Below, one piece after another: positions 13,955 to 32,265 of a DNA stretch of 64,000 nt; the stretch's first letter is position 1; each line of letters begins with the position of its first letter. A program made the position numbers and the translations under genes. The DNA comes from Campylobacteraceae bacterium (GTDB taxonomy: Bacteria; Campylobacterota; Campylobacteria; Campylobacterales; Arcobacteraceae), in contig JABXII010000018.1 in the NCBI GenBank assembly GCA_013373175.1, forward strand, positions 1 through 64,000, read 5' to 3'. A model generated the notes under the pieces. That model had not been told where the DNA came from. It saw only the letters and a list, made by a program, of their open reading frames with translations, and did not search any database.

Positions 13955-13987
13955 AGATATAGATTTTAGTCCTTTTAATCTATATCT
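13955..13987. terminator. Hairpin terminator
   Basis: AGATATAGATT ... AATCTATATCT followed by T run; between convergent genes. Confidence 0.7.
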
Positions 13988-14008
13988 TTTTTAACTTCTC
14001 CAATATCT

Positions 14009-17000
14009 TTATTTTCTATTTTTATATTTATCAATATGTTTTACCATCACTCCAGAAAAGGTTACACTATTTGATATTGTTTTTCTATTTCCAAATAATA
14101 CAAATATTTCTTTAGCTCTAGTTACTGCAACATTTATCATATCTGGCTCATCTCTATTAAAAAATAGATTTGGAGCTTTCCCTTCATTTTCTTTATTATA
14201 AACAGATGAAAAGATTATTATATCTCTTTCTGAACCTTGATATTTATGAACAGTACCTACTTTGATAATTGGTTCTTTAATATCGTCTTTATGGCTTCCA
14301 ATTTTATTAATAATTTCTTTTTTTAATAAATTTTCCTGATTTACAAATGGTGTAATAATTCCTATTGAATTATAATAATCCTCATCAGTAATATCTTCTT
14401 TATTTTTAATTCTCTTTAAAAACTCATTAATATAACGTTCTTTTCTATCTATAATAAAGTTTATAATTTCACCAACTTCACCTTGATTTGTATTATATGA
14501 ACTTTTTTGATGTTCATGTTCTATAAATAACAATGTACTCCAACTCTTATCTTGATATTTATCTTTTTTTAATGGTTTAATTTCATTAAAGTATGATATT
14601 TCATTAGAAATTTGTACAATAGGAGTTTGGCATCTAAAATGTTCCTTTAACCAAAGATCACCTTCCATTTTACTTTTATTATATGGAAGAAAATAATTAG
14701 TACTTGAATTAGCTATATCCATGGAGTTATTATTTTTTTTGATTATTGGTTCATTACTCATTTTAGAAGCACATGAGAAATATTTTGAAACAATACTAAT
14801 ATCTTTTTTTGAAGAATAAAAGTCTTCTAATATTCTGTTTTCAATTTTAGTATCATAAGAAAAGACAGGTTTTAATTGTTTAGTATCTCCAAATAGCATC
14901 ACTTTTTTGGCACAGTTTAATATTATCATTTTAGAAGGAGGTATCGTACCTGCTTCATCGATTAATAAAAAGTCAAAAATATTTTCTTTTATATAAGTAT
15001 CATTTCTATTTGAAACTATTGTACCAAAACTATTACAAGTGATATTTATAATAGGGAAAATAGGATATAAACTGCTAAAAAGTTCATCATTATTTGTATT
15101 TTTAGTAGAAATATTTATAAAATCTTCTGTTGCGTTAACATAGTATGAAATTTCATCAATAGTAGCTTTTGAATTTTTTAATATATATAAAATTTTTTCT
15201 TCATCTAATTCTTTAGGTAAATACTTATTATTAAAAGAAAACTTTCTATCACACTTTGAACATTTGATTACACTATCACGTTGAACCATAGAACCTTCAT
15301 GACATATAGGACACTTGATAACTTTATTATCAAAATTATTTAATTCTATTTTAGTATTCCACATATTTGTATTTGATATAAAATAAAGAGCCTCTAAAAG
15401 ATGTAAAGCAAAATAAAAATTATCAGTTCTTTGTGTAGTATCATATCTTTCATTTTTTTCATTTAATCTAGCAAGCTCTTTATATGTATCCTCAAATTCA
15501 ATTAGTCTTTCTATATCTTCAAACTCAAAAATATCATTTGATAAAATACCAAACTCTTTATCTAGTAAATTTTCTATTTGATATAATTTAATGTCTTTGT
15601 CATCTATTTCATTTTCTAGTTGATATATCTCTAATTTTATTTCACTATGTTTTACACTAGATTTAGTAATATTTGTATCAATTTTACTTAATTTTTTTTC
15701 TAGTTCTTTAATATATTTACTATGTTTATTTAATATATTTTCTTTTAAATCGTTTATAAAAAAATCTTGCTGATAAAAGTTAGTCTGAAGATTAGACAAT
15801 TGTTCTTGCGATGAATTATTTAATAACTCAATCTTATCTTTTATCTTACCTCTTTTTAAAAATCCATAAGAAAGTTTTTCTAATATGTTAGCACTTTCAA
15901 ATACTTTTTCAATATCTGTTTTTAGAAGTTCTTTTATATCGTTTTTTTCATTTGCAAATTTATCTCTATATTTATATTTAATCTCTTCAAAACAACTACT
16001 ATAAAGTGGCGATATTTTATAATCACTTAAATAAGATTGTTCTGTTTTTATTTGTTTATTTATAATCTCAATTTCATTTGCGCATAAAGATATAGAATTT
16101 TCAATTTCAAAAGCTTCAGCTTTATACTCTTTTATTGTATTTTTTAAATTTAGTATATTTTTTTCTATTTGTTTATACTCTTTTTGAAAAGACCTAAATC
16201 TACACAATGAAGAAGAAAGTTTTTCTGAGTGCTCTTTTATTTGGGAAAGTGTAGCTTTTATAAGATCTTCTTGAATACCTTTTTCTATATATTTTGTTAC
16301 TAAATTTAGTTCGATTTTACTTAACTTATCCACTTTATTTTGAATATGAGATGTTAATTTTTGTAATTCTTCTATGTTTTCATTTATTTTATTAAAGAAA
16401 AACCTTGCAGCTTTATTTAAAAGGTCTAAAGTTTTTTTATCAACTTCTCCACAAAACATATCTATTTCTCTATATTTAAAATATTCATTTATAAAAATTA
16501 GAGGATTTTTTGATATTATATTTCCTACTGTTTGCATATCATTTTTAGAAAGTTCATATGTTCTTTTTATTGTACTTCTAACAGAAGGAACAAACAAATT
16601 ATTATTAAAGTTTATAGTCTTTTTTTCTAATTCAATATCATCAGTCAACCATCGTTTATATAAATTACTATCGTTCTTTTTAGAAGTTTCAATAAATCCT
16701 GAGTCTATTCCCTCAGAAATATTTGTTAAGGCTTGATTGTTTGTAGAGGAGCAAACTATAGGAGTAGAAAATAAAACAACTTTCTCTTTTAAATAGCTTT
16801 CATAACTTTTTATAGCTGATTTTACTGTATAATCACCAAATATGCCTCTCAATAATGAAGTTTTACCTGTTCCTGGTGCACCATTTACAGGTAATACATC
16901 TTTATTTTCAAGATAACAACTCAATGCTTCTCTTTGTGTTTGTGCTAAGGGATATTCTTTATCAAAGGAACCAAAATGAGAAGAATAAGAATTTATAATT

Positions 17001-17908
17001 TTTTTTGTAGTGATAATCTCACTTGCTTCTATTTTAGGATAGATTATATCATTCATTTTTCTTCTATCTACACTAAAGTATGAGTATATCAAATTATTAA
17101 TGTTTTGATGTTCAAAGATAGTATCATAAATTTTTGTCAATCCCATATTCAGATTTTGTGAAACCCCAATAATAAAAGCTTTATCTTGAAACTCCTTTTC
17201 TATATTATATTTATCTGATTTAAAAACAGGCTCTAAAAATTCACTTATCTGTTTTTGTGTATGTTCAAATGATGATAAGTTAATATATGGTGTTTCTAAA
17301 GAATATGGTTCTAGTATTTTTGGATTAAATACCAAATAAGGCTTAATCTCACAAGAAAATTCTTCTTCATCTTCTGTTAAGCTATACCCCAAATATCTTT
17401 TTATCTCAATAAATATTTTATCTGGTGTTAAAAAATTAAACTCTTTATCATAGTTTGGGAAAAGTATCACAAAAGAAGGAACAAACTTAGAATAATTAGA
17501 AAAAGGATTTTCTTTTAAAAGATTAAATGCTATTCCATATTGAAAGAAGTTTGAATCTTTTGAAAAAATAAATTTATTATGTTCATAGATATTTGGGGGA
17601 TCATATCTTTTTTTAAGTTTTTGCCCTTCAAAATTTATAGTTCTTTCAAAATATGACACTTCATGAATAAATGATTCAATTGTATCTTCACTAAGATATT
17701 CAATAGGCAAAAAGTTATTCTTAAAATTACTATCTAATGAAAAATAATGATTCTTTTCTAGCTTTTTATCATATTCTTTATTAATTTTATCACTTACATG
17801 ATATGAAGATATCTGAGTTTTTTTATATTTTGTTCCAAGAACATTATCAATCCTAAGTGCTAAATCATAATATTTAAATAACCTGTTTAAAAACTCTTCT
17901 CTTCTCAT
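14009..17908 (-). CDS. Large SF1 (UPF1/DNA2-like) helicase with coiled-coil and zinc-ribbon insertions
   Basis: Walker A GAPGTGKTSLL, LLIDEAGTIPPSK, LFGDTKQLKPV, GTVHKYQGSERDIIIFSSV, NVAVTRAKEIFVLFG; CPIC..CSKC. Confidence 0.88.
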   Translation of the reverse strand: MRREEFLNRLFKYYDLALRIDNVLGTKYKKTQISSYHVSDKINKEYDKKLEKNHYFSLDSNFKNNFLPIEYLSEDTIESFIHEVSYFERTINFEGQKLKKRYDPPNIYEHNKFIFSKDSNFFQYGIAFNLLKENPFSNYSKFVPSFVILFPNYDKEFNFLTPDKIFIEIKRYLGYSLTEDEEEFSCEIKPYLVFNPKILEPYSLETPYINLSSFEHTQKQISEFLEPVFKSDKYNIEKEFQDKAFIIGVSQNLNMGLTKIYDTIFEHQNINNLIYSYFSVDRRKMNDIIYPKIEASEIITTKKIINSYSSHFGSFDKEYPLAQTQREALSCYLENKDVLPVNGAPGTGKTSLLRGIFGDYTVKSAIKSYESYLKEKVVLFSTPIVCSSTNNQALTNISEGIDSGFIETSKKNDSNLYKRWLTDDIELEKKTINFNNNLFVPSVRSTIKRTYELSKNDMQTVGNIISKNPLIFINEYFKYREIDMFCGEVDKKTLDLLNKAARFFFNKINENIEELQKLTSHIQNKVDKLSKIELNLVTKYIEKGIQEDLIKATLSQIKEHSEKLSSSLCRFRSFQKEYKQIEKNILNLKNTIKEYKAEAFEIENSISLCANEIEIINKQIKTEQSYLSDYKISPLYSSCFEEIKYKYRDKFANEKNDIKELLKTDIEKVFESANILEKLSYGFLKRGKIKDKIELLNNSSQEQLSNLQTNFYQQDFFINDLKENILNKHSKYIKELEKKLSKIDTNITKSSVKHSEIKLEIYQLENEIDDKDIKLYQIENLLDKEFGILSNDIFEFEDIERLIEFEDTYKELARLNEKNERYDTTQRTDNFYFALHLLEALYFISNTNMWNTKIELNNFDNKVIKCPICHEGSMVQRDSVIKCSKCDRKFSFNNKYLPKELDEEKILYILKNSKATIDEISYYVNATEDFINISTKNTNNDELFSSLYPIFPIINITCNSFGTIVSNRNDTYIKENIFDFLLIDEAGTIPPSKMIILNCAKKVMLFGDTKQLKPVFSYDTKIENRILEDFYSSKKDISIVSKYFSCASKMSNEPIIKKNNNSMDIANSSTNYFLPYNKSKMEGDLWLKEHFRCQTPIVQISNEISYFNEIKPLKKDKYQDKSWSTLLFIEHEHQKSSYNTNQGEVGEIINFIIDRKERYINEFLKRIKNKEDITDEDYYNSIGIITPFVNQENLLKKEIINKIGSHKDDIKEPIIKVGTVHKYQGSERDIIIFSSVYNKENEGKAPNLFFNRDEPDMINVAVTRAKEIFVLFGNRKTISNSVTFSGVMVKHIDKYKNRK

Positions 17909-17948
17909 ATTTTATTTACTTTCTTTTTAATCTATATCTTTTTAAAAA

Positions 17949-17997
17949 ATTCCAATATCTGCACCATACCAAAGTATCAAGGTTACAATATTCTAAA
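17949..17997 (-). pseudogene. 3'-terminal remnant of a DUF2779 gene
   Basis: About 90% identical to 27096-27144; encodes LEYCNLDTLV then frameshifts (compare LEYCKLDTLAMVKIL). Confidence 0.75.
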
Positions 17998-18088
17998 GTT
18001 TTCATTTACTCTTATATAAACACATTCATTTTTTACTAAATAATAATTATCTTCTTTTAATTAATTCTTATATTTAAAATTTTTACGA

Positions 18089-18286
18089 TTAATATTTAAC
18101 ATATATATTTTTTTCATTTTTATTTTTTTGATAAAATTCAGGCTTGTTTTTAAAGCTTTGTTCACCTTCGAATCCTTTTAAAATTTCATCTAGTTCACTT
18201 ATGCAAATATCGCCTTTCATTCCTTTTGTTTCAGCTTGAATATTTCCATCTTCATCTATTTCTATTATTACATTATACTCTTGCAT
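18089..18286 (-). CDS. DUF2997-like small protein
   Basis: MQEYNVIIEIDEDGNIQAETKGMKGDICISELDEILKGFEGEQSFKNKPEFYQ resembles DUF2997. Confidence 0.7.
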   Translation of the reverse strand: MQEYNVIIEIDEDGNIQAETKGMKGDICISELDEILKGFEGEQSFKNKPEFYQKNKNEKNIYVKY

Positions 18287-18836
18287 TATTTTCCTTTTCT
18301 ATCATTTTGATAAGCTTATTTGTTGGATATCCTGTAATTTTAATATTTGCATTTATATCTATATCTATTTGAACATCGCTATTATTGAATTGCCAAGGAT
18401 CAATATCTTTATTTAATAAATATAGACTTTGATTATTATTTATTTTATTTTTATCATATCTACCTGATACTAAAATATCAGTGTAATTTAGTAAAACTTT
18501 TTTAAAATCACTTTGAAGTTCCTCTATATCAAACCCACTAAATATCTGAATATCTAAATTAGTATTTTCTTTTACTAATTGAGCTAATTTTGATAGTTCA
18601 TCAGATTGTAGAAATGGTTCTCCCCCAGTAAATGTTATACCATTAATAGTATCTCTTAAATTTATAATTTCTTTAAAAACTTCATCAACCGTTTTTAATA
18701 TTCTTTTTTCAAAACTCCAAGTTTCAGTATTCCAACAGCCTGTACATGCTAAATCACAACCTTGAAGCCATAATACATATCTACATCCATTTCCATTAAC
18801 ATAGTTTGAAGTTGCAATATTATGAATGTTCAACAT
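18273..18836 (-). CDS. Radical SAM, NrdG-activase-like 4Fe-4S protein
   Basis: GCDLACTGCWN CxxxCxxC; GITFTGGEPFLQ. Confidence 0.88.
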   Translation of the reverse strand: MLNIHNIATSNYVNGNGCRYVLWLQGCDLACTGCWNTETWSFEKRILKTVDEVFKEIINLRDTINGITFTGGEPFLQSDELSKLAQLVKENTNLDIQIFSGFDIEELQSDFKKVLLNYTDILVSGRYDKNKINNNQSLYLLNKDIDPWQFNNSDVQIDIDINANIKITGYPTNKLIKMIEKENNARV

Positions 18837-19223
18837 TTAGTAAGTTCTTTTTTGAAGTACTAATCTAATAGTATTATCTTCTTGTATTTGTTTTTTTAGT
18901 TTATAGCCTTGTCTTTTAGCATTTTCAATTAGTAAATTAGCTTTTTCTTCTCTTAGTATTCTTTTTTCTTCTTTTATTCTTAATTTCTCTGCTTCTGCTA
19001 GTTCTTCAAGATATTTATTAAATCTTTGAGTATAAAGAGATTCTATTTTTTCAATTTCTTTTTTCTTTTGATTTTCATCAATTTGATCCCATGCATCATA
19101 TTCATTAAATATGAATCGTTTGTTTTCTATTTTTATATCTAATCTTAACTCATCTAGTATTTCTTTAGCTATTTGAATGTTTTGAATTAATAGTTGCCCT
19201 TTTATATTTATTGTTCTACTCAT
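18837..19223 (-). CDS. DUF1257 (Ycf35)-like protein with coiled coil
   Basis: C-terminal AKRQGYKLKKQIQEDNTIRLVLQKR resembles the Ycf35 C-terminus; adjacent to DUF2997-like. Confidence 0.55.
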   Translation of the reverse strand: MSRTINIKGQLLIQNIQIAKEILDELRLDIKIENKRFIFNEYDAWDQIDENQKKKEIEKIESLYTQRFNKYLEELAEAEKLRIKEEKRILREEKANLLIENAKRQGYKLKKQIQEDNTIRLVLQKRTY

Positions 19224-20943
19224 CTTTAGCTCCTACAACTACTTTATAATCCTTATCACAATATCTTTGTTTTAATTCATTTGCTTTATTAATGTCTTCT
19301 TCAAAGATAATTTCTAAAAAGTAAGAGTTATTTGTTTCATATAACACACCAACCTCGGGCAAAATATATCTTGGTATATTTAATTTTTTATATTCATTTG
19401 AATTCGTTTTATTTTTCTTGAAGTTTTTAATCTCATTTTGTTTCGGATTATATTTAAATTCTGAATATTTATCATTTATTTCGTGTTTTAAAGAATCAAT
19501 TTTATTCTCTATTGTTCTAATTTCTTTCTCTATTTTAGTAAATTCTTTAGTATTTTTTTCTTTTTTTTCAAATAGGAGTTTTTTTTCTTTTAATTCATGT
19601 TCTTGCTTCTCCAAAGTTTTAGTTTTTTGTTCTTTGTCTCTATTCCACTTATCCTCAGCCTCTTTTCTCTTTTTATTTTCTTTAAAATCTGTATTAGATT
19701 TTATTATACTCTCAAAAAACTCTTTGAATTCAACTTCTATAAACTTTTCTAAATCAACTATTGATAGTTTACTTAAATCTAAATCTTTATACTCTTCAAT
19801 TTTTTTTAGATTTTGTTTTGCTTTTCTATTTGCACCCATAAAAAAAGAGATAACCCCACTTTCTTTTTCTAAATCAGTAAGTACTCTATTTAATATTTCT
19901 AGATATTCTTTAAACTGCCTATCAAGTTCTTCAAAGTCATTATATAAATTAGCTTTTTTAGCATTATTAGGTTTTGATGGAGGGAGTACTTCCCATGAAA
20001 AGTTTATCTCTTTAATATATTTTTCCTGCAGAAATTCTACTTTTGTAGTATTCATTTCTTCAATTATATTTGATTCTATACTCCCTAAATTTACTTTTTT
20101 ACTAACTTCTATATTTATAATATTATCCCAGCTTTCATCTATTGGTATAATTTTGTCTTCTGAAGATATTTCTTTTAAAAAGTTTTGAGTATAAATCCAT
20201 TTGTCTGTAATGTCAAATTCTATTTCTTTAAGCAGTAAATTACCAATTTGAAGTTGGTCTGTATTTTGATAAATAATTGAATTAATAACAGTACTAACAT
20301 ATTTATTCGTAGATTCTTTATCTAAAAGTACAGATTTATATTTTTCATCTTTAGGTATATAAATCTTTTCAAGGTCCTCTAAATCATTATTTGTAATATT
20401 AATAAAATCTAGTTCTCTTTGGTTAATTGTTGGGAAAGGAGATTCAATAGGTTCAGCAATAGTATCTACTAATTTTTCAAGTGATGCACACTCCCAAAAA
20501 TAGTAGTTGAAAATATATTTTAAATCTGGAGTTTTGTTTTCATCAATTTTAATAAATATATTTTCTTTATTTTCTAGTGGGTTAATGAAAATATATGCAA
20601 TATTATCAATAATAATTAGATTGTTTTCTAATTGTTCAACCTCTCTTAAGACAGTAGGTTTTTTAGAATCAAATCTTTCTAATGTTTGTTTAGATTTATC
20701 AAATGATTTTAATAAAATATATATGTTTATTTCATCATTTTCATATAGTGCATCTATTATTTCATTTGATATATTTTCAGTAGATGATAATTGAATTGTC
20801 TTTTTTGCATTGTGAATTTTATGGACTATTTTTTCATAGCTTTGCAGATCACTACTAGTATCATCTTCTTTTATTAAATAGGAAATAGTTTCACCAGAGT
20901 AATCAATCGTTTTTTCTAAATTTATTTTTTCTATTTTACCCAT
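19216..20943 (-). CDS. Hypothetical protein, N-terminal degenerate PLD-like domain and long coiled coil
   Basis: HNAKKTIQLSSTENISNEIIDALYENDEINIYILLKS...ENNLIIIDNIAYIFIN layout; Glu/Lys heptads. Confidence 0.65.
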   Translation of the reverse strand: MGKIEKINLEKTIDYSGETISYLIKEDDTSSDLQSYEKIVHKIHNAKKTIQLSSTENISNEIIDALYENDEINIYILLKSFDKSKQTLERFDSKKPTVLREVEQLENNLIIIDNIAYIFINPLENKENIFIKIDENKTPDLKYIFNYYFWECASLEKLVDTIAEPIESPFPTINQRELDFINITNNDLEDLEKIYIPKDEKYKSVLLDKESTNKYVSTVINSIIYQNTDQLQIGNLLLKEIEFDITDKWIYTQNFLKEISSEDKIIPIDESWDNIINIEVSKKVNLGSIESNIIEEMNTTKVEFLQEKYIKEINFSWEVLPPSKPNNAKKANLYNDFEELDRQFKEYLEILNRVLTDLEKESGVISFFMGANRKAKQNLKKIEEYKDLDLSKLSIVDLEKFIEVEFKEFFESIIKSNTDFKENKKRKEAEDKWNRDKEQKTKTLEKQEHELKEKKLLFEKKEKNTKEFTKIEKEIRTIENKIDSLKHEINDKYSEFKYNPKQNEIKNFKKNKTNSNEYKKLNIPRYILPEVGVLYETNNSYFLEIIFEEDINKANELKQRYCDKDYKVVVGAKDE

Positions 20944-22346
20944 TATTTTATTTCCTCTAATAGTTTAATTACTCTAGGAGCAATTTTTTCAATATCCTCT
21001 CGTTCAAACAAATCAAAACTTGTATTATGAAGGCCATCGGTACTTTCTCCAGTTCTATATATTAGACTATTATTAACTATCCAATGTCTTGTATGTTCAA
21101 TTTCATTTTTTTCTTTTATTATTCTCTTTATTTTTTGTTTATCTATAAGTTTTTTTATTTCATTTAATTCCTTTTTATAATAATCTTTAGTTGTAAAAAT
21201 TGTGACACTTGGATTATCTAAGTTATTTAATATTTTTATAAGAGTAGATAAGTTTCTTTTTGAGTTTAGGTATCTATCCATAATTATTAATTCTTCAAAA
21301 GGTATTTTAAATTTACTTTTATAGTCTTCAATACTTTCTATTATAACTCTTTCTTTGGGTACTATATTTGCATCAAAAGGATATAAGTCAATACCTGCTT
21401 GTAAAAGCCAGTAATATTTAGAACTTCTACCAAATTCTTTTAAAATTCGTTCAAAATCAAACTCTAATTCAAACTTTTTAAATACAGGGTTTCTTTCTTT
21501 TATATCTTCCCATAGCTCTTGAAGTTCTGATTTTGATATGTATTTATTAAGTTGTTTAATTTCATCTTTTAAAAGATAGATAAACCATTCTTTTGCATCA
21601 TATTGTGTTTTTGGAATAATATTAATATCTTGAAATTTACCTTTTAAGTCACCATAATCTTGAAATTCTATATTATCATCATATGTTATTTTAAAAGATT
21701 TAATAGCTTTATCATTTTTTTTAATTAAAGAAAATTCTATTTTCAACGAACCAAATTCATTATCCCATTCACCATTAAACAAACTGTTAAAATCAATATC
21801 TTCCATTTCAAAGCTTTCATCATTAATAGTATATTTCCAATTTTGATCTAAATATTTAATTACTAATTGAGAATTATCAATACTCTCAAAATTAGCTTTA
21901 TCATTTTCAATAATATTTACTTTAAAATCTTTATTTGTTTTATCTTGTACAGTTTTTATAAAATCTTTATTTTGATTAGTGTTATTAGCAGTATTTCTAG
22001 TTACTGCTTTTTCTCTTTTTATTTGTTTGTTTTTATATTTGAAAGGTAGTTTTGTATCGTTCTGAAATATTTCTAAAGAATATTTTCCATACTCTTTTTC
22101 AGGAAACCCTTTTTCTATATTTTCTAAATAACCATTTTTTATAACTCTTAGACCTTCTAATTTATTTACAATATTTTTTATTGCAGATTCTGGCATATTT
22201 TTATATTTTAATTTTTCAATTAAATCATCTTTTGTTTCTATGCTTTTTAGTAGGTCAATATATGGTGATTTTTCATCAAAAAAATCTACTTCACCAACAA
22301 ATTCCATTTTATATAGTTTTATATTTTTACTTAACTCTATTTTCAT
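20943..22346 (-). CDS. Hypothetical protein with C-terminal MIT_C/PLD-like HxR motif
   Basis: EHTRHWIVNNSLIYRTGESTDG near C-terminus. Confidence 0.6.
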   Translation of the reverse strand: MKIELSKNIKLYKMEFVGEVDFFDEKSPYIDLLKSIETKDDLIEKLKYKNMPESAIKNIVNKLEGLRVIKNGYLENIEKGFPEKEYGKYSLEIFQNDTKLPFKYKNKQIKREKAVTRNTANNTNQNKDFIKTVQDKTNKDFKVNIIENDKANFESIDNSQLVIKYLDQNWKYTINDESFEMEDIDFNSLFNGEWDNEFGSLKIEFSLIKKNDKAIKSFKITYDDNIEFQDYGDLKGKFQDINIIPKTQYDAKEWFIYLLKDEIKQLNKYISKSELQELWEDIKERNPVFKKFELEFDFERILKEFGRSSKYYWLLQAGIDLYPFDANIVPKERVIIESIEDYKSKFKIPFEELIIMDRYLNSKRNLSTLIKILNNLDNPSVTIFTTKDYYKKELNEIKKLIDKQKIKRIIKEKNEIEHTRHWIVNNSLIYRTGESTDGLHNTSFDLFEREDIEKIAPRVIKLLEEIK

Positions 22347-25300
22347 TAGATACCTTCTCTTTCAGCTAATCTTTTTAGTTCTAAAGAACCATTTTGTTTA
22401 TTAAAAAAGTTTTTATCCCCTACAATTACTCTTTGATATTTTGCTCTAGTTAGTGCTACATTTAATCTATTTATATTATCCATGAAGCCTATTGATTTAC
22501 CTCTAACCATACTTAGAAAGACTAAATCAGCTTCCATTCCTTGAAACTTATCAACTGTATAAAGAAGTATATTTACTCCATTTTTATGAAATCTAGACAT
22601 TTTATTTGGTTGGTTACACAATTTCTTTAATCCCTCTCTCAAAATAGTTTCTTGAGGTTTATAGAAAGTTAGTACAGCAATACTCCATGACTCTTCATCT
22701 TTATTTTTAGGAAACTCTTTTGTAAACTCCAAAAACTTACCTATTTCTTCTATAATAGTATCTACTTCTTTATAGTGTCTTCTATCATTGTTTTTTTCTT
22801 TATCACTTTTAGGTGTATCTATCCAAACTGCTCTTGAATTGTATCTATTATATTCCCATTCTCGATTTATTGTACTAGCATTTTGTAATGCTTGACCATC
22901 TTCATTTGTATAAAACTCTTCCCTTGAAAATTTAGAAATATCAGGTGACATTCTATGTTGAGTTTTTAAAACTTCATGTCTTTGTTTTAAATCTCTTTTG
23001 TCAAATCCATCTGTAATAGTTGTAGAGTTTTTATGTTTTTCTCCATTTCCAATTTGAATAGATTCTAAGATTGATGGAAGTGTCATATTATAAATCCTTT
23101 CAACAGGATTATTTTCTTCAACTGGTTTAAGTAATTCATATGTTCTTTCATAATATGAATCTCTCTTTTTTAACATTCTTCTTTCGTAAACTCTTATCAT
23201 TCTCCATGATATTGCTTCTGCCCAATTTTGTTCTTTTATCATTGATTTAAAAGAAGATTTATATTCATAAGGATTATTATCTTTAGGAAAATTATTATTG
23301 ATTTCTGCAAATTTTGATAATCTTTTTTTATGATTTAAATAGTTTTGTTTAAACCAAAAATCATCATTATCTTTATCTTTTTTTAAAACTGCAATATGGG
23401 TTTTAGGTAAAGTCTTTTTTCTTTTCTCCCATTCACCTTCTTTTATTAAAATTAAATCACTACCTAATAATTTAAATAAATCTTCTTCATTGCTATAAGA
23501 AACTATCTTTTCTTTATATGGATTATCATCTTTTTCTGACCATTTTGTTAAGTATTTTTTGATTTCTTCTTCTTCTTTATTTGAAACTTCTACAATATAT
23601 GGGGTTTGAATTTTATTCTTTTTATCATAAGTGTTATGCAGCGTTTCAAATATTATTCTTATTGCCTTTTGCTTATCTTCATGTACAGAAACATTTAAGT
23701 TATGAACTATATGCGATTGTTCTATAAAAGGTGAAAGTTGTTTAATATCTCCTACAAGTATCCATTTTTTTGCTAACATTGCAGGTACTAAAAATTCTTG
23801 AAAAGTTGTTTTACTTGATTCATCAATAATCATATAGTCAAAAATAGTATCCATAGGTAAAAGAGATTCTTCTCTTCTACCATCTTTAAAATTTACTCTA
23901 TCTCTTATGGGTGGAAATTGATTTATTCCCATCGTAGTAGCACATACTAAGTTTGCACTATCAAGCACAATTTTTTTTGCCATATCTTCATTAAATCCAT
24001 TATTAATATATGTTTCTATTTTAGCATCGATTTGTAAATAATTAATGGCTTCTCCAACACTTTCATTCCTTCCAATCCTAAGTGCTTCTACATTATTATC
24101 AATATCATATTTATATATTCTCTCTAGTACATTGTCTATTGCTACATGTGTTGAAGCTGATAAAAGTATCTTTTTACCTAATTTAAGAAGTTGTAAAATT
24201 AGTTCTAAAATAGTTGTAGTTTTACCACTTCCAGGAGGACCTTCAAGTAATGCAAAATCATCTGTAGCTATAGCTTTTTTTACAAACTCTCTTTGATCGA
24301 TTGTACCATCAAAGTTTTCATTATTTAAAATATACCAAGAATCTATATTGACATCTTTACTATTCTTCCATAACCTTTCACTTTTTCTTTCAAGAAGCTT
24401 TATAAGATTTTGTTGTGCTTTAACTGGTGAATTATTTAATAGCCTTATACTATTTTGTTGTTTTTTTAAATTTCCAGTATCTATTTTTATTTTTATTGGT
24501 TCATTTTGTATTAGATGTTTAGGATTTCTAAAATCTTGTCTAAGAATAAGAATTTTATCTTCTATCTTTTTTACTTTTATATCAAAAGTAGTTTTTTTAT
24601 TACCATCTTGATAGATAGTTTGTACATCATCTGCAAGAAAATATTCTGATATAGTTTCATCATCATTGTTATCATCATCTATAAGTTGAATAACTATATC
24701 ACTTAATTTTGTATTATTTATCTTTTTCCATTCATATTCTATATTATTTTCATCTTTAAGTATTTTTGAGATTGGCTTACATTTACATTGATATTCATTT
24801 CCCATTTTTTCATAGAAAAACTCTATATTATTGTCAAATAACTGATTGAATGTATATATATACTTTGTACTTTTTAATACTTTACCATTAAATTTTAGTT
24901 CTTTTATATTTTTGTTAGTCCTAATTTCAATATTCCATCCATCTTCTAGTGTTTCAATATTTTCAATTTTAAATTTTTCATTTTGACTTTCAAGAATATC
25001 ATTTTGATTTAATGATAAGTTTTCTATCTCATATTTAACTTCAATATTATTAACCTCTACTATCTCATTTTCAAGAGCTAATACATCAATATTTAAGTAA
25101 ATACAGTTTTTATCTATATCAATACTATCTTTATCAAATCTTATTGTTTTATCTTGTGTATCAAAAAATAATTTATTTCTAGTTTCTTCTAATATATTTA
25201 TATCTTTAAGTATAACTTTAAATATACTTTTTGGTTTTTCAATTTTAAATTTACTATATACAGGTGTGATAGATAAATTAAAATTCGATTCTATTTTTTT

Positions 25301-25507
25301 CCAATCTATTTCATAAGAGCTTTTTTCTTCTTCTGTTTTAATAGCTTTATTCAAAAACTCATAATATGGTATTAAAGCTTCTTTTGTAGTATGTCTTAGA
25401 GCATCTACAACTTTTTCATTATTGTTAAAACAAGTAAAATATGATCTATCACCGAGGTGTAGTTTATTATTCCAGTTAGAATTTCTTTTTTTATTCTTTG
25501 CCATCAA
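22346..25507 (-). CDS. SF1 DNA2/NAM7-like helicase
   Basis: GPPGSGKTTTILELILQLL, YMIIDESSKTTFQ, LVGDIKQLSPF, TVDKFQGMEADLVFLSMVR, NRLNVALTRAKYQRVIVGD. Confidence 0.9.
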   Translation of the reverse strand: MMAKNKKRNSNWNNKLHLGDRSYFTCFNNNEKVVDALRHTTKEALIPYYEFLNKAIKTEEEKSSYEIDWKKIESNFNLSITPVYSKFKIEKPKSIFKVILKDINILEETRNKLFFDTQDKTIRFDKDSIDIDKNCIYLNIDVLALENEIVEVNNIEVKYEIENLSLNQNDILESQNEKFKIENIETLEDGWNIEIRTNKNIKELKFNGKVLKSTKYIYTFNQLFDNNIEFFYEKMGNEYQCKCKPISKILKDENNIEYEWKKINNTKLSDIVIQLIDDDNNDDETISEYFLADDVQTIYQDGNKKTTFDIKVKKIEDKILILRQDFRNPKHLIQNEPIKIKIDTGNLKKQQNSIRLLNNSPVKAQQNLIKLLERKSERLWKNSKDVNIDSWYILNNENFDGTIDQREFVKKAIATDDFALLEGPPGSGKTTTILELILQLLKLGKKILLSASTHVAIDNVLERIYKYDIDNNVEALRIGRNESVGEAINYLQIDAKIETYINNGFNEDMAKKIVLDSANLVCATTMGINQFPPIRDRVNFKDGRREESLLPMDTIFDYMIIDESSKTTFQEFLVPAMLAKKWILVGDIKQLSPFIEQSHIVHNLNVSVHEDKQKAIRIIFETLHNTYDKKNKIQTPYIVEVSNKEEEEIKKYLTKWSEKDDNPYKEKIVSYSNEEDLFKLLGSDLILIKEGEWEKRKKTLPKTHIAVLKKDKDNDDFWFKQNYLNHKKRLSKFAEINNNFPKDNNPYEYKSSFKSMIKEQNWAEAISWRMIRVYERRMLKKRDSYYERTYELLKPVEENNPVERIYNMTLPSILESIQIGNGEKHKNSTTITDGFDKRDLKQRHEVLKTQHRMSPDISKFSREEFYTNEDGQALQNASTINREWEYNRYNSRAVWIDTPKSDKEKNNDRRHYKEVDTIIEEIGKFLEFTKEFPKNKDEESWSIAVLTFYKPQETILREGLKKLCNQPNKMSRFHKNGVNILLYTVDKFQGMEADLVFLSMVRGKSIGFMDNINRLNVALTRAKYQRVIVGDKNFFNKQNGSLELKRLAEREGI

Positions 25508-25509
25508 TA

Positions 25510-27078
25510 TTACTTTATAAAAGGGTTATGTTTTTCTTGTGCAAGAGTTGGTATTTTTTCATTTGATTTTGGTAATTCTTCACTATCTCCTGTTGAAGCA
25601 AACCTAGCTCTAACTTTTGCCCAAGTTCTTAAATCTTTTATATTGTCTGCCATGGTTTTAGATAAAGGGAAAGTCTCTTTTAGTGCTGCTTCAATATCTT
25701 TAGTTTCAATTTCTCTACTATTATTATATGCGATAAATAATGCTTCATTTACCGCTTCTTCTATCTCTGCACCACTAAATCCAATTGATAAAGTTGATAG
25801 TCTGTCTAAATCAAATTTTGATATTTCTCTTTCTTTTTTTTCAATATGTATTTTAAATATCTCTTTTCTTTCATTTGATGAAGGTAAATCTACAAAGAAT
25901 ATTTCATCAAATCTACCTTTTCTTAATAATTCTGGTGGTAATGCCTCTATTTTATTAGCTGTTGATATTACAAAAACTTCATTTTTCTTCTCTTGCATCC
26001 ATGTAAGAAGAGTACCAAATACTTTAGCACTAGTTCCACTATCTCCACCATCAGAGATACCACTTAATCCTTTTTCAATTTCATCTATCCATAAAATAGA
26101 TGGAGCAATAGCTTCACTAAGTTTTAAAGCTTCTCTCATACGAGCTTCACTTTCCCCAACTAATGAACCAAATACATTTCCTAAGTCTAATTTTAAAAGT
26201 GGTAATTTCCATTCATTTGCAATAGTCTTAGAAACTAAACTTTTACCACATCCTGGAATACCTAAAAGCATTACTCCTTTTGGTGAAATTAGCCCAAAAT
26301 CTCTGGCATCTTTTGTAAATGCTTTACCTCTTTTTTCAAGCCAATCTTTTAAGTTTTCCATACCTCCAACTTCTCTAAAGTCACCTTGAGGATGAAAATA
26401 TTCAAGTACTCCACTTTTTTTGATGATTTGTTCTTTTTCTTGTACTATCGAAGGTACTTCATATTTTGTAAGTCTGTTTTTATCAGCTATTATTTTTCTA
26501 TATGTCCATTCTGCTTCCATTATCGATAAACCTTTAGAGGCACTGACAATCTCTCTTTTATCTTCACTATTTGGTTTGTTGTCATATTCTAAGTTATCTG
26601 TAATAGATTCTACTATCGCTTCTAGTGTTTCTTCATTTGGTAATTCTATTTCTAATAAAGGGATTTCTTTTTCAAACTCTTTTACATTTAGGTTAAATGG
26701 TGTTTGGATAATCAATGTCTTTTTTAAACTAGAATCAATTCTACATATTTCTCTGATTTGTCTAATAACTTCAAAGTTATTGTTTGTTATAAAAGGATGA
26801 AAATCTTCAAGTATAAAGATACAATTTTTTTTATCTTCTTCTTTAAACCATTCTAATATATCTAAAGGATCTTTCTCATCATTTTCATTTGTAAAATTCC
26901 GCTTCTCTTTATCCCATTTTTTACATCCACTTGTAACACTCCAAGTAAATAAGTCTAACTCATTTTCTTGAGCTATTCCAACACAAAAACCATAAAGTCT
27001 TTGCCATTCATAAGTCACTATTTGAACAGCTGGTATATTTGCTTTTATTAAATTTTCTAATTCATTATTAAAATTCAT
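25510..27078 (-). CDS. Ycf46-like classical AAA ATPase
   Basis: N-terminal LIKANIPAVQIVTYEWQR and LFTWSVTSG typical of Ycf46; GIPGCGKS, SILWIDEIEKGL. Confidence 0.85.
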   Translation of the reverse strand: MNFNNELENLIKANIPAVQIVTYEWQRLYGFCVGIAQENELDLFTWSVTSGCKKWDKEKRNFTNENDEKDPLDILEWFKEEDKKNCIFILEDFHPFITNNNFEVIRQIREICRIDSSLKKTLIIQTPFNLNVKEFEKEIPLLEIELPNEETLEAIVESITDNLEYDNKPNSEDKREIVSASKGLSIMEAEWTYRKIIADKNRLTKYEVPSIVQEKEQIIKKSGVLEYFHPQGDFREVGGMENLKDWLEKRGKAFTKDARDFGLISPKGVMLLGIPGCGKSLVSKTIANEWKLPLLKLDLGNVFGSLVGESEARMREALKLSEAIAPSILWIDEIEKGLSGISDGGDSGTSAKVFGTLLTWMQEKKNEVFVISTANKIEALPPELLRKGRFDEIFFVDLPSSNERKEIFKIHIEKKEREISKFDLDRLSTLSIGFSGAEIEEAVNEALFIAYNNSREIETKDIEAALKETFPLSKTMADNIKDLRTWAKVRARFASTGDSEELPKSNEKIPTLAQEKHNPFIK

Positions 27079-28562
27079 ATAATCTCTCTTAATTTATTCA
27101 ATATCTTCACCATAGCCAAAGTATCAAGTTTACAATACTCTAAAAGTGAAGTTCTCATTTTCTGTTTACTTACCTCATCAAGTTTACTAAGATTTGCAAA
27201 GGCATTCATAGCTTGGCTTCCATTTTGTACACCATCTAACTCTTTATAGGCTTTTTCAAACTCTGGTACAAGTGCTGGAAGTACATACTTTATAGAGTAA
27301 CTTCCTTGCATACTTGGGGTTACGTACCATTTCTTTTGAAAAGGTAGCATTAGGTCTTGCATGTTTTCATTTATAGCTAATAAGTGAATACTTAGGTCAG
27401 GGAAAAGGTTTGCAAGTCTTGTTATCACACCTTTTTCAAAACTCATATTGTAAGCTAATACTGTAACATCACTTGGGATATCTTCACATAGCTTTAACGC
27501 TAACTCATATCTACTATCTACACAATGCTTGCTCAAATACTCTTTATGCTCCAAAGTACCATCTTCATGCTCTATATGAAGTGAGTATTGAAAAGGGATT
27601 TGCTCGAAGGGCTTTATACCTTTGTATTGTGGTATGGCTTGTTGGTAGGTTTCAAAGTCTAAGTGATAGATTGGGTATGTGAGGTTTTCTAAAAAGGCTT
27701 TGATATTTTCTTTGTCTATATAGCTTGCTTTTGATTTGTAGTTTTCTACTGCTTGGGCTTGATTTGCCGTCATATCAAAATCTACTGGGATATCTTCTAT
27801 ATCTATGATACCTTGATTGTAAAGTTCAACTTGCTTTTTACTTCCTAGATTGAAAATATTAAAAATAGAATAATCTGGAATTTGTCTTTGTACTTTCCAA
27901 CAATAGTTTTTAACATCACACTCATAAGGTTTGTTACAATGCTTTCCTATATCTATATCTGGCTCATTTACCTTATCTTCTAAATAAGTTTCAAACTCTT
28001 TTAATATGCTTGGGATATTTGACTGTAAACTTTGCACTTCACTAGTGACATCCACTATCTTAAAAAGCTTTTCTAACTCTAAAGACTCACCTCTTACATA
28101 CTCATTGTTTATATGTACTACACTTGCACTTTTTATACTAAAACCTAAGTTTTGTAAAACATAGTACTGAATAGATACATCATGAAGATATATATCTTTT
28201 ACCTCAGTTGAGCTTTTAACCTCATAGATAGATGCACCATCACTATCTAGTTTTAAAATATCTACCATAATAAGTATACCCTCATAGCTAAAAGTAGCTT
28301 CGTAGATATTTGATACACCCTCTTCCATCCACTGTTTTGTAGTAGATATCATCTCATCATAATTTGTAGTGTATGATACTTCTTTTCCATCAGGGAAAAG
28401 CTTGCAAGCTAAGTCTCCTACTATATTTCCAGTTTCAAATATAGCTTGAGCTTGCTCATCTGGTGGTGTCAAAACACTTGGCTTGTATTTTTTAAGCCAA
28501 AGTGCTTTGGGGCATTGGATGCCTCTTGTGTAGAGGGATTTAGATAGGTTCATATTACTCAT
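27075..28562 (-). CDS. DUF2779 protein (Cas4-like N-terminus plus RNase H-like C-terminus)
   Basis: Cysteine cluster CNKPYECDVKNYC; YHLDFETYQQAIPQYKGIKPFEQIPFQYSLH; LEYCKLDT. Confidence 0.85.
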   Translation of the reverse strand: MSNMNLSKSLYTRGIQCPKALWLKKYKPSVLTPPDEQAQAIFETGNIVGDLACKLFPDGKEVSYTTNYDEMISTTKQWMEEGVSNIYEATFSYEGILIMVDILKLDSDGASIYEVKSSTEVKDIYLHDVSIQYYVLQNLGFSIKSASVVHINNEYVRGESLELEKLFKIVDVTSEVQSLQSNIPSILKEFETYLEDKVNEPDIDIGKHCNKPYECDVKNYCWKVQRQIPDYSIFNIFNLGSKKQVELYNQGIIDIEDIPVDFDMTANQAQAVENYKSKASYIDKENIKAFLENLTYPIYHLDFETYQQAIPQYKGIKPFEQIPFQYSLHIEHEDGTLEHKEYLSKHCVDSRYELALKLCEDIPSDVTVLAYNMSFEKGVITRLANLFPDLSIHLLAINENMQDLMLPFQKKWYVTPSMQGSYSIKYVLPALVPEFEKAYKELDGVQNGSQAMNAFANLSKLDEVSKQKMRTSLLEYCKLDTLAMVKILNKLREII

Positions 28563-29148
28563 TTAATCCTAAATTTTCTTTATCTACTGCTATAATATAT
28601 TTTCCTCCATTCCAATCATGAAGTTTTCCATTAATGCTTTTTACTAAAAGGTATCTATCATTTGCCATATCAAATGTTATATTTTTTAGCAATATATTTT
28701 TATTTTCTAATCTTTTAATACTATCTTGTAAATACCAAGTATACCCAAAATAAGTAATTACTGTAAAAAATATAAAAGAAAATAGACTAGTAAAAAAAAC
28801 TTTATATATTATATAGCTACTCGCATTTTTATAGATTTCTGTAGCTTCATTTGCATACTCATTTGCTTCTTTAAAATTTGTATTTATATGATTTACCACA
28901 GCATCAGCTATTGCATGGCTTTTAGATTTAACCTCTTTTTGAATTTCTTCATTTATATTTATTACACTATTATTTAGTTCTTGAATTGATTTATTAAGAT
29001 TTCTATTATTGACCTGAAGATTACTATTCTGTAAATCATAATTCTCAATCAACTTATCAAGATTTTCTTTACTATCTTCTACTGAATCTAAAAGATTTGA
29101 TGCAGATTTGAACAAAAAAATCATTTTTTCTTTTTCTTCTTTATTCAT
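28555..29148 (-). CDS. Hypothetical coiled-coil protein with one TM segment
   Basis: VFFTSLFSFIFFTVITYFGYTWYL hydrophobic segment. Confidence 0.65.
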   Translation of the reverse strand: MNKEEKEKMIFLFKSASNLLDSVEDSKENLDKLIENYDLQNSNLQVNNRNLNKSIQELNNSVININEEIQKEVKSKSHAIADAVVNHINTNFKEANEYANEATEIYKNASSYIIYKVFFTSLFSFIFFTVITYFGYTWYLQDSIKRLENKNILLKNITFDMANDRYLLVKSINGKLHDWNGGKYIIAVDKENLGLNE

Positions 29149-29873
29149 TTCATACCCCTATATATGTTATTATTTCGGCTTTGTGAACGATTTTGCTCTA
29201 GCTTCTGTTCTAGTTCATATTCACTTTGCATAACACTCTCACATTTTTGTTGAATTTCTTTTTTAAAATCATTGTGCTGTAGTTGTAGCTGTTCAATTTG
29301 AGAAAATTCTACATAATTAATACCTTCTTTTGATACAGATACAATTAATCCACCAGTACCAATTGCTCCAGAACCTTGACATGTTGATATCAAAGATAAA
29401 TAATGTTTTTGCTCTTCGTGTGTGATACTAGATATAGGATTATTTACTTCAATTGAAATACTCTTAATAAAACTTTCTAAGGTATCCATTCCCATAGTTC
29501 CATTATATGCATCCAAATAAGGGACAATCTTATTTACACAAATTTCCTCAAAAGGTTCAGTTTCTATATACCAATGTATTTGTCTTGATACATATTGCAT
29601 TCTTTCGTTATCTTTTAATGCTTTTTCAAGCTTTTCTACTCTCTTTTTTTCTTTATTGGATGGATTTTTAGCATTTTTAAACTCTAAAACCCTCACTACA
29701 CCAGGAAACTCTAATAACATATCACCCAATTCTTTATCAGCTGGCGTTTGCTGTAATAAATTTATAATACTTGGTAAAGTTTCTGTTCCGTCATCCAAGC
29801 CAATTTTTATACCTATATCAAGACCTAATCCATATAAAAAATTTCCAATTATTACATTTTCATATAATTTCAA
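29145..29873 (-). CDS. Hypothetical protein
   Basis: Intact 242-aa ORF, ATGA overlap with next gene. Confidence 0.65.
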   Translation of the reverse strand: MKLYENVIIGNFLYGLGLDIGIKIGLDDGTETLPSIINLLQQTPADKELGDMLLEFPGVVRVLEFKNAKNPSNKEKKRVEKLEKALKDNERMQYVSRQIHWYIETEPFEEICVNKIVPYLDAYNGTMGMDTLESFIKSISIEVNNPISSITHEEQKHYLSLISTCQGSGAIGTGGLIVSVSKEGINYVEFSQIEQLQLQHNDFKKEIQQKCESVMQSEYELEQKLEQNRSQSRNNNIYRGMK

Positions 29874-29898: not shown

Positions 29899-32265
29899 TT
29901 AATTAGTATACTTATCTTTAAAATTAATTTGCATCGTTTCAAGACCAAATTTTTGAAACTTATATCTCATATATGCTGACATCATCTGTTCATGGGTAGA
30001 CATAAATATTTGTCTGTCAGAAAACTCATTTCTTAATAAATTTATAAAGCCTGCTATATTTAATTCATCAAGAGTTTGAACAGGATCATCAATAAATAGT
30101 AATTTACTTTTTGAATATCTTTTATTTAGTGCTAATGTGAAAGATATTATTAATGAAGCCAACTGCCCTGAACTCATAGAAAAAATAGCATCATATTTAT
30201 CATAATTAGCAATACCCGAACTACCTACTTGTACACTTTCAATAAATCTTATTCCAATCTTGTCAGCTTTAATAAAAAGACCTAAACCATTTTGATAGTC
30301 TTGCATAATTCTTCCAGAATAAATATGAAATAAAATTTCAATATCTTGTATTAACTTTTCTTGATAAAGTTTTAATTCATCTTTATAAATTTTAATAATT
30401 TTAGATAATTTTTTATTTATTTGTAATGCCTTGTCAAACTTTTCTTTTTTTGTATTATATTCATTATTTAATCTTTCAATTTCACTATTCTGATATGAAC
30501 TATATTTCCAATTAATATATTTTTTCTTTTGAATTAATTGTTCTGTTTTTAGTAGTTCTAGTTTTTCTTTTTTCTCATCAAAATATCTAACATAATAATC
30601 TGAAAAATACTCTTTTATATTCTCTGGTTCAAAGTCTTTTTTTACTCCACTTATATTTTCTTTTAACTTACTAATTCTTTCATCTAAATTTACTACTGTT
30701 TTAGGATCTTGATTGAAAAATGTACTTAAATCTATTCCTAACTTTTCAAAACTAGAATTTAAATTTTTTAAATTCTCTTCTCTCTTCTTAACCTCTTGCA
30801 ATTGGTTAATAAAACCTTCATCAAGTTTATTATCTTTAAAAAACTTATTTACCTCAACAATCATTGGTTGAATAAACTTCTTATCAAAATCTTCTATAAG
30901 AGACTCTAATTCACCTCCATTATTAGTTATTAATTCAGATAACATTTCAGATTGTCTATCGAAGCTGTCTAATAAATCTTTTTTTTCTTTCCAATCGTAT
31001 CCACATACAGGACATACTGTGTCACTACTATCTTCAAGATATTCTTTATATTTGGATATGAGATTTTCTCGTGATTCTTTTATATTACTTAAAATTTTTT
31101 CTAGTTTATTTGATGTATCTATTTTACTTTTGATTACTGTTATTTTTGCTTTATATTCATCTATATCAATAAATAGTTTTATAATATCTTCAATATTTTT
31201 TGGCACATCTATTTTTTCTTCTTGGAATACAGTCAAAATTCCTTTTTCAAAATTTTTCACATATTTCTCAAGTTGATTATGAATGTTTAACTTAGTTTTT
31301 AAATCATCATTTTCATCAAGAAAATTAAAAAAACTCAATAAATTCTTAACATTAGTATCATTTTCTGTAAGTTTTTCTAGCTCATTATTAAAAGTTTTAT
31401 TTTCAAAATCTTCAAAATTATTGATAAAGAAAATTAATTTATTTAACTCTCCATTTTCTCCTAACCATAAAGAATAATTATTTGATGTAAAGTCTAAATC
31501 TTCTTTATCCCAGAATATTTCTTTCTCAGGAAACAATTGAGTATATTCAGATTCTTCTATATCTGTCAATAAATTAGATAGGTACTCATTTTTACGTCTT
31601 AAGATATCTTCATAATCTGCTTTTGCATTAGCATTTGATGCTTCATTTAACTTTTCTTTTACGGAAGTTAGTTGATTTATTTTAGTACTTATTTCATCTG
31701 TATTAAATAAATGAGAAATATAATCTTTTCTAACTTTATCTTTTTGTTTCAATAAATAAGTATTGTCTTCTTGTTCTATATAATTTAGAAAGCCAAAATT
31801 TTTATTAAAATCATTGCCTAATAAATAATTAAAAAATGTTTCACTGTCCTCAACTAAGTCTCCAGTATCAGCTTCATATTCACTCAACTGATACAAAGGT
31901 AAAGAAAATGTTTCAAAATCAATACTATTAGCAAGTGTTTCACACCCTTCTTTTCTCATTAAGTAATATGTAGTATCATTTATCTCTAATTCTACTTTTA
32001 TAACCATTTCATCATCTAACAAAGCTTTATTACAAAGAATTGGATTATCATTTATCTGTTGTCTGCCATCAATAATATTTGATAATGAGCTATATCTTCT
32101 TAATTTACCAGTGAAAAGTATTTCCAGTGAATCATAAAAAGATGTTTTCCCAAAACCATTGGGACCATCTAGAACTATTAAATTAGGATTGACAAAATCA
32201 ATTGTTTCTAAACTTGTGAATAATTTAAAATTTTTAACTGAAATTTTTTTAATTTTAATTCCCAT
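29899..32265 (-). CDS. Rad50/SMC-like ABC ATPase of an ABC-three-component system
   Basis: LDGPNGFGKTSFYDSLEILFTG Walker A, CPVCGYDW hook, SMSSGQLASLIISFTLAL signature, LLFIDDPVQTLD Walker B. Confidence 0.9.
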   Translation of the reverse strand: MGIKIKKISVKNFKLFTSLETIDFVNPNLIVLDGPNGFGKTSFYDSLEILFTGKLRRYSSLSNIIDGRQQINDNPILCNKALLDDEMVIKVELEINDTTYYLMRKEGCETLANSIDFETFSLPLYQLSEYEADTGDLVEDSETFFNYLLGNDFNKNFGFLNYIEQEDNTYLLKQKDKVRKDYISHLFNTDEISTKINQLTSVKEKLNEASNANAKADYEDILRRKNEYLSNLLTDIEESEYTQLFPEKEIFWDKEDLDFTSNNYSLWLGENGELNKLIFFINNFEDFENKTFNNELEKLTENDTNVKNLLSFFNFLDENDDLKTKLNIHNQLEKYVKNFEKGILTVFQEEKIDVPKNIEDIIKLFIDIDEYKAKITVIKSKIDTSNKLEKILSNIKESRENLISKYKEYLEDSSDTVCPVCGYDWKEKKDLLDSFDRQSEMLSELITNNGGELESLIEDFDKKFIQPMIVEVNKFFKDNKLDEGFINQLQEVKKREENLKNLNSSFEKLGIDLSTFFNQDPKTVVNLDERISKLKENISGVKKDFEPENIKEYFSDYYVRYFDEKKEKLELLKTEQLIQKKKYINWKYSSYQNSEIERLNNEYNTKKEKFDKALQINKKLSKIIKIYKDELKLYQEKLIQDIEILFHIYSGRIMQDYQNGLGLFIKADKIGIRFIESVQVGSSGIANYDKYDAIFSMSSGQLASLIISFTLALNKRYSKSKLLFIDDPVQTLDELNIAGFINLLRNEFSDRQIFMSTHEQMMSAYMRYKFQKFGLETMQINFKDKYTN

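Follow-up and report, generated by a model that had tools for sequence, protein, structure and literature searches.

Among described defence systems, Mokosh (MkoA, MkoB, MkoC) has a UPF1-like helicase and a protein of phospholipase D (PLD) fold; type I Mokosh carries a kinase domain on the helicase protein, and the active PLD nuclease is MkoB or, in type II, a fused domain. Ycf46, DUF1257 and DUF2997 are retained in cyanobacteria and plastids, and we know of no established function for them. In cyanobacteria, a conserved gene cluster contains DUF1257, DUF2997 and the ferredoxin Fed7, which is tied to tolerance of oxidative stress, metals and iron starvation (PMC4284462). CoCoNuTs combine McrBC with a UPF1-like helicase, and their type III-C adds PLD domains (PMC11090510). 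Here we analyze a seven-gene module in a 64,000-nucleotide stretch from a Campylobacteraceae bacterium ("the window"; contig JABXII010000018.1). The module encodes an AAA+ ATPase, a helicase, the proteins P5 and P4, a DUF1257-like protein, a radical-SAM protein and a DUF2997 protein. We put at roughly 55% the probability of an overall explanation in which it is a horizontally moving operon, a hybrid of a UPF1/DNA2-type core and an AAA+/Fe-S cassette, that defends against mobile elements.

A check of open reading frames (ORFs) and translations in the window places the module in seven minus-strand ORFs (Table 1). The helicase and P5 ORFs share base 22346, and the P5 and P4 ORFs share base 20943; P4 and DUF1257 overlap at 19216-19223, radical-SAM and DUF2997 at 18273-18286, the DUF1257 and radical-SAM ORFs abut at 18836/18837, and a 2-nt gap (25508-25509) separates AAA from helicase. 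The helicase ORF begins with a TTG at 25507, with an ATG one codon downstream. The seven genes are one real compact unit, with every coordinate, shared base and overlap as an earlier sequence-only reading had given them.

Three of the genes make up the helicase core. The helicase carries a Walker A motif, GPPGSGKTT, at about 24215-24241, and matches AAA_11 and AAA_12. Its relatives are SMUBP-2 (IGHMBP2), SEN1, DNA2 and UPF1, in agreement with the DNA2-like superfamily 1 (SF1) helicase proposed earlier, and the MkoA profile of PADLOC matches it at 4.8e-80. P4 and P5 of the window have no Pfam match. AlphaFold2 models P4, at a predicted local distance difference test (pLDDT) score of 89, as a two-domain PLD fold with a coiled-coil stalk and a small C-terminal domain, and Foldseek recovers the two-domain PLD fold with a best E-value of 8e-8. 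P5 is modeled at pLDDT 85, and its best Foldseek match is the PLD-like MITD1 (E 5.6e-5); the PLD/MITD1-like domain comprises about residues 327-467 at the C terminus. Both proteins lack the HKD motif of PLD enzymes, which bears out the earlier description of two degenerate PLD-like proteins. The C-terminal domain of P5 contains HTRH at about 21084-21095, and its H-x-R is conserved in all 20 of the 20 copies that possess the domain. In locus L041 (3352-4995), a P5 homologue carries a Zc3h12a-type NYN ribonuclease in place of the PLD-like C terminus (PF11977, 4.7e-17). An iterated P5 profile weakly matched an ORF6N-type protein, suggesting some contamination, and our statements on P5 use separately built alignments.

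The other four genes make up the cassette. The AAA protein has Walker A (GIPGCGKS, at about 26239-26262), Walker B (ILWIDEIE) and RKGRF motifs, and is related to CDC48/VCP at 1e-56. It shares about 40% identity across 95% of its length with AAA proteins of cyanobacteria whose genes neighbour DUF1257 and DUF2997, and the name Ycf46-like, already used in the sequence-only reading, is given on the strength of this full-length similarity. The Walker motifs are retained in module copies (for L015, the first match picked by the pattern search was the wrong one). DUF2997 scores 26.2 bits against PF11211, above the Pfam cut-off, and the window protein is the only copy in the 2.76-Mb genome; it contains a GxxC motif (G25, C28) at about 18203-18214, whose glycine and cysteine are invariant in 31/31 sequences. 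By comparison, no cysteine column is conserved at 60% in DUF1257, P4 or P5. A Pfam scan of the window DUF1257 protein itself gives no DUF1257 match. Its identity is supported through its orthologues, 4 of 18 of which match PF06868 (best 3.8e-8), and through a profile-profile comparison (hhalign) with annotated DUF1257 proteins at 95.7%, and the earlier call of both small proteins is upheld on these grounds.

The radical-SAM protein, likewise called NrdG-like before, matches Fer4_12 (6.6e-32), Radical_SAM (3.3e-11) and NrdG, the activase of anaerobic ribonucleotide reductase (2.4e-33). It falls short of the NrdG equivalog cut-off (115.2 against 126.1 bits), and its score against the viperin NCBIfam model is 25.1 bits for a cut-off of 180. 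Its CxxxCxxC motif (C27, C31, C34) lies at about 18735-18758, and this motif and GGEP are retained in all aligned radical-SAM proteins. We considered DUF1257 as a glycyl-radical substrate of this protein, its C-terminal [R/K]xxGY resembling a glycyl-radical loop. We rejected the idea because L026 and L034, both with an intact radical-SAM motif, have Asn and Phe, respectively, in place of the glycine; [R/K]xxGY looks like an ordinary helix-strand turn.

Core and cassette each occur without the other. For the core, at least 29 loci encode a helicase, a "hypothetical" protein and a PLD together with an RtcR/PspF-type CARF sigma-54 regulator, other sister systems consist of the three core genes alone, chiefly in archaea and Bacteroidota, and no cassette gene was found in the flanks read of sister loci. 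The sister operon with the regulator, found on plasmids of Vibrio aerogenes, V. rumoiensis and Pontibrevibacter, encodes homologues of the helicase, the N-terminal region of P5 and P4, ordered as in the module. By hhalign, P4 matches the active PLDs of the sister systems at 99.9% (E 2.8e-35) and the P5 N-terminal region matches the "hypothetical" protein at 99.9% (E 1.7e-36), against 0.15% for an unrelated control pair. The sister operon differs in that its PLD keeps HKD, its RtcR-type regulator stands in place of the AAA/DUF1257/DUF2997/radical-SAM cassette, and its P5 homologue has no C-terminal PLD-like domain. This four-gene system, which has no name, is seen in L002 (546-7371), L003, L004, L032 and others; in V. 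aerogenes it adjoins cas1/cas2 and a RAMP-type CRISPR gene, and the Pontibrevibacter plasmid also carries dnd genes.

The cassette of AAA, DUF1257, DUF2997 and Fe-S/radical-SAM genes is also found by itself on plasmids and in phages across many phyla, including Paenibacillus polymyxa pPPM1a, Paenarthrobacter, Rhodococcus, cyanobacterial plasmids and Aeromonas phage HJ05. The sequence-only reading had taken the AAA, DUF1257 and DUF2997 families to be mainly cyanobacterial or plastid, and this part of it fails. The stand-alone cassettes share with the module a homologous AAA and DUF2997 and a protein of DUF1257 type, and several also have a radical-SAM homologue; the module likewise has its Ycf46-like AAA next to DUF2997 and DUF1257, with an Fe-S/radical-SAM protein in the operon. 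They differ in having no helicase, P5 or P4, and their AAAs fall outside the module clade. Cassette-type AAAs are present in phages and a Streptococcus satellite phage (Javan368, HJ05 and Smooch; L118, L119 and L120), and in HJ05 DUF1257- and DUF2997-like genes lie near the AAA. On Treponema succinifaciens plasmid pTRESU01 (L005), AAA and radical-SAM genes stand amid contractile-injection-type genes (VgrG, baseplate).

Three lines of evidence bear on how the two halves came together. First, in quick trees with some long branches, module-type helicases, including three cassette-less or truncated members, form one clade (Shimodaira-Hasegawa-like approximate likelihood ratio test, SH-aLRT, 97), as do all module-type AAAs (SH-aLRT 100). 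Second, pairwise divergences of the seven proteins are correlated in all 21 comparisons (0.63-0.95), and 0 of 2000 permutations were as high. Because of these single clades and this correlated divergence, the simplest reading is that core and cassette were apparently joined once and then spread horizontally as a unit. Third, H-x-K-x4-D is found in 0/24 module-clade P4 proteins, window included, and in 42/42 sister PLDs of adequate length, although HKD loss is one change on the tree, so that these counts do not represent independent events; a pattern match in the L095 P4 (HEKEKSSD, residue 652) lies beyond the PLD fold, in the C-terminal tail, and was scored as no HKD. The PLD active site of P4 thus appears to have been lost at the union with the cassette. 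The idea of a single seven-gene system survives as a description of a recurrent unit, but its parts are two pre-existing modules, and the core has sisters whose PLD looks active.

A helicase alignment was used to scan 84,980 species genomes, and the flanks were searched with iterated profiles; locus counts are lower bounds. The ordered set AAA-helicase-P5-P4 with DUF2997, DUF1257 and radical SAM recurs, either in full or truncated where a contig ends, in at least 20 loci of about 13 phyla: Campylobacterota, Spirochaetota, Fibrobacterota, Bacteroidota, Planctomycetota, Bacillota, Pseudomonadota, Thermodesulfobacteriota, Myxococcota, Nitrospirota, Mycoplasmatota and Patescibacteria, plus the archaeon Methanococcoides. 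Many of these hosts are metagenome bins, and individual host assignments may be wrong. Because the ordered set is found in so many phyla, its recurrence is more than chance, and the neighbourhood co-occurrence proposed earlier is borne out. The nearest relatives by helicase identity are in Campylobacterales (69%), Spirochaetales (53%) and Fibrobacter (38%); these and the window share the order DUF1257-radical SAM-DUF2997, most other relatives have DUF2997-DUF1257-radical SAM, and L041 has its AAA gene last. Closer to home the module is rare: its helicase was not found in the other 103 genomes searched of the host family and is present in 3/397 genomes of the phylum, host included. A single-sequence helicase query of IMG/VR contigs gave no helicase match, and neither did a P5 search of plasmids give any match.

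Table 1. Genes of the module and the repeats that bound it (window coordinates).
Feature	Position	Strand	Evidence
AAA+ ATPase, Ycf46-like, 522 aa	25510..27078	-	Pfam AAA 4.3e-30
UPF1/DNA2-like SF1 helicase, 1053 aa from TTG	22346..25507	-	Pfam AAA_12 2.4e-36, AAA_11 4.5e-28
P5, 467 aa	20943..22346	-	hhalign to sister-system "hypothetical" protein; AlphaFold2/Foldseek
P4, 575 aa, PLD fold without HKD	19216..20943	-	hhalign; AlphaFold2/Foldseek
DUF1257/Ycf35-like protein, 128 aa	18837..19223	-	PF06868 matches in orthologues; hhalign
NrdG-like radical-SAM protein, 187 aa	18273..18836	-	Fer4_12, Radical_SAM and NrdG matches
DUF2997, 65 aa	18089..18286	-	PF11211 above cut-off
Direct repeat, resident copy (DUF2779 3' end); upstream boundary of module	27081..27131	-	homology with congener G063 stops here
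Direct repeat, decayed second copy of DUF2779 3' end; downstream boundary of module	17936..18039	-	blastn, alignment

The insertion site of the module can be read against a congener, G063, in which the locus runs sbcD-sbcC-other genes-DUF2779-ORF6N-type gene-luciferase-like gene. Homology between the window and G063 ends at 27081 and restarts at 14009. A further copy of the DUF2779 gene end lies at the downstream boundary (blastn 74% across 112 columns, E 1.6e-12) and a partial one at 13984-14009, and copies also flank the congener's cargo, at 12203-12253 and 13244-13308 of its locus L117. DUF2779 itself (27075-28562), which overlaps the AAA start by 4 nt, was rejected as an eighth module gene because it is 93% identical in the module-less congener, with homology that runs on to 27081. 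There is no integrase among the module genes. The module and other cargo have a G+C content of 23-25%, against 28.7-33% for resident genes and flanks. The DUF2779 end, duplicated around different cargoes in the two species, forms an integrase-less hotspot resembling the "insertion with long target duplication" reported for Helicobacter pylori restriction-modification genes (PMC1643837).

Defence-type genes adjoin the module here and elsewhere. Lamassu-like genes occupy the same variable interval in the window: at 29899-34265, between sbcC and DUF2779, lies a Lamassu/ABC-3C-like set of LmuA (Cap4-type nuclease, CTD1), MComp1 and an LmuB-type SMC ATPase. Among relatives, L020, L023 and L036, whose hosts belong to different phyla, have McrB-like and McrC genes immediately upstream in the same orientation, a DruE-like gene adjoins L025, and HEC-01A/DUF4276 adjoins L015. 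As further cargo at the same site, a MkoC-like SF1 helicase of 1299 aa (14009-17908; PADLOC 2.7e-102) ends at the helicase domain and so apparently lacks the Mokosh PLD domain. It was rejected as a module member, since the decayed DUF2779-end repeat intervenes and no such gene was seen inside relatives' operons. Two small genes of 197 and 242 aa (28555-29873) overlap one another and the DUF2779 start; they have no convincing family match and no match in the congener locus L117. An ADP-ribosylglycohydrolase gene stands beside the module in two unrelated hosts (L015 17619-18740, PF03747 3e-67; L023 4651-5598, by eye).

Defence-type neighbours in the window and in relatives, horizontal spread and an insertion bounded by direct repeats together support the conflict or defence setting proposed in the sequence-only reading, and a role against phages or plasmids appears likely. 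Several observations pull the other way. The relatives' flanks were a selection picked by eye, with no matched control set. The Halobacillus locus L021 has a core with dead P4, and its genome yielded no cassette AAA; L022 and L029 sit on short contigs, with the L022 AAA on another contig and none found in the L029 assembly. The P5 C-terminal domain is missing in L018, L055 and L084, and elsewhere its H-x-R comes without the HKD lysine and often without the aspartate, so that the domain may only bind. Finally, the cassette stands alone in phages and cyanobacteria, where its neighbour Fed7 is redox-linked (PMC4284462), and its role would therefore not be specific to defence.

This last point leads to a different account, unlikely but not negligible, in which the module is a mobile RNA or protein quality-control or stress-response operon, and its island location follows merely from horizontal movement. 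The cassette would respond to redox or iron stress, as its relatives in cyanobacteria may do, and the helicase complex would remodel or survey damaged RNA. The UPF1-like helicase fits such a role, as do the Fed7 cluster with DUF1257 and DUF2997, given its link to oxidative, metal and iron-starvation tolerance (PMC4284462), and the RtcR-type regulator of the sister systems, since RtcR responds to damaged tRNA (PMC7790460). However, the module is patchily and widely horizontally distributed and absent from the host family's other genomes searched, defence genes adjoin it and several relatives, and its insertion resembles that of restriction genes.

We also weighed an improbable alternative in which the module assists type IV restriction by McrBC, much as the helicase-plus-effector branch does in CoCoNuTs, and has little activity alone. 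The McrB-like/McrC genes upstream of three relatives argue for it, as does the joining of McrBC to a UPF1-like helicase, in type III-C also with PLD domains, in CoCoNuTs (PMC11090510); yet there is no McrBC gene in the window module or its scanned neighbours, and other relatives with scanned flanks show other defence genes instead. Least probable is that radical chemistry is itself the effector, with an AAA+-driven radical-SAM protein modifying nucleic acid, a nucleotide or a phage protein in place of the lost PLD nuclease, and helicase, P4 and P5 merely delivering the target: every aligned copy retains the radical-SAM motif and PLD catalysis is lost exactly in cassette-bearing systems, but at 187 aa the protein is only a minimal activase of NrdG type and scores weakly against the viperin profile, and the cyanobacterial cassette has a ferredoxin instead (PMC4284462).

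For the putative hybrid defence operon, in which nucleic-acid targeting and radical chemistry are inferred, a mechanism can be sketched. The helicase would engage foreign RNA or single-stranded DNA, while P4, as an inactive PLD bearing a coiled-coil stalk, would serve as a scaffold or nucleic-acid clamp. The P5 C-terminal domain would be the effector, for which we see slightly less than even odds; since a Zc3h12a-type RNase occupies this position in one lineage (L041), it would probably be a nuclease with RNA as its substrate. The AAA+ motor, DUF1257, DUF2997 and radical-SAM protein would form an ATP- and S-adenosylmethionine-dependent switch that matures or licenses the helicase complex. Within it, the invariant DUF2997 cysteine would be the likeliest site of radical or redox chemistry. 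We prefer a thiol- or radical-based DUF2997 switch because of this cysteine and because the cyanobacterial Fe-S neighbour Fed7 is tied to redox stress, and only tentatively suggest that the radical-SAM protein acts through it. More doubtful still is a radical-SAM-gated form of defence, in which a nuclease-less helicase complex is held under a CDC48-like motor, and a radical or redox change at the DUF2997 cysteine, modified or reduced by the radical-SAM enzyme here and by ferredoxin in cyanobacteria, switches immunity. If true, the cassette would serve phages, plasmids and photosynthetic cells alike as a general ATP-plus-Fe-S control module.

The module bears on three questions together: what Ycf46, DUF1257 and DUF2997 do, why a defence-type helicase complex retains a PLD protein whose active site is lost in every system with the cassette, and whether immunity can come under the control of radical-SAM or redox chemistry. 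It is a defined seven-gene unit with natural boundaries and has relatives in the cultured genera Bacillus, Shewanella, Amphritea and Pseudomonas, among them Bacillus tianshenii (L020) and Shewanella decolorationis S12 (L024). Direct mutational tests could start from the invariant cysteine of DUF2997, the H-x-R of P5 and the inactive site of P4.

Set beside named systems, the module stands apart, as the sequence-only reading had suspected: a PADLOC scan gives Mokosh helicase profiles for the helicase, none for the window P4 and P5, and no matching system. We found no paper that joins these genes, in a search from which subscription papers and preprints were largely missing, so that a name may exist. 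No literature was found that links antiphage activity, radical SAM, AAA ATPase, helicase and NrdG, and DUF1257 and DUF2997 appear in few papers, none of them on conflict systems judging by titles and abstracts. The AAA is related by profile to IetAS (2e-25), but Pfam and NCBIfam scans find no protease domain like that of IetS among module proteins, and IetAS is a different operon. With CoCoNuT type III-C the module shares a UPF1-like helicase, which in CoCoNuTs is CnuH, with an OB-fold and a stalk, as well as a PLD-fold partner and coiled coils, and the RtcR links of the wider CoCoNuT family recall the RtcR-type regulator of the sister systems; it differs in its dead PLD and its AAA/radical-SAM cassette, and no McrB GTPase or McrC is encoded among the module or neighbouring window proteins scanned. 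The module has, like Mokosh, a UPF1-like helicase and a PLD-fold protein, and the MkoB profile weakly matches the sister-system PLD (4e-10) and not P4 or P5. Again the dead PLD site and the extra cassette set the module apart, and Pfam and NCBIfam scans show no kinase domain on its helicase. We therefore rejected membership of Mokosh, CoCoNuT, IetAS and viperin, each of which fails a tested defining feature. To our knowledge, there is no precedent for an AAA/radical-SAM cassette on a helicase/PLD defence system. The module may work like the helicase-PLD systems, and it is best described as a putative variant of the helicase/PLD defence systems that carries an AAA/radical-SAM cassette and a dead nuclease.

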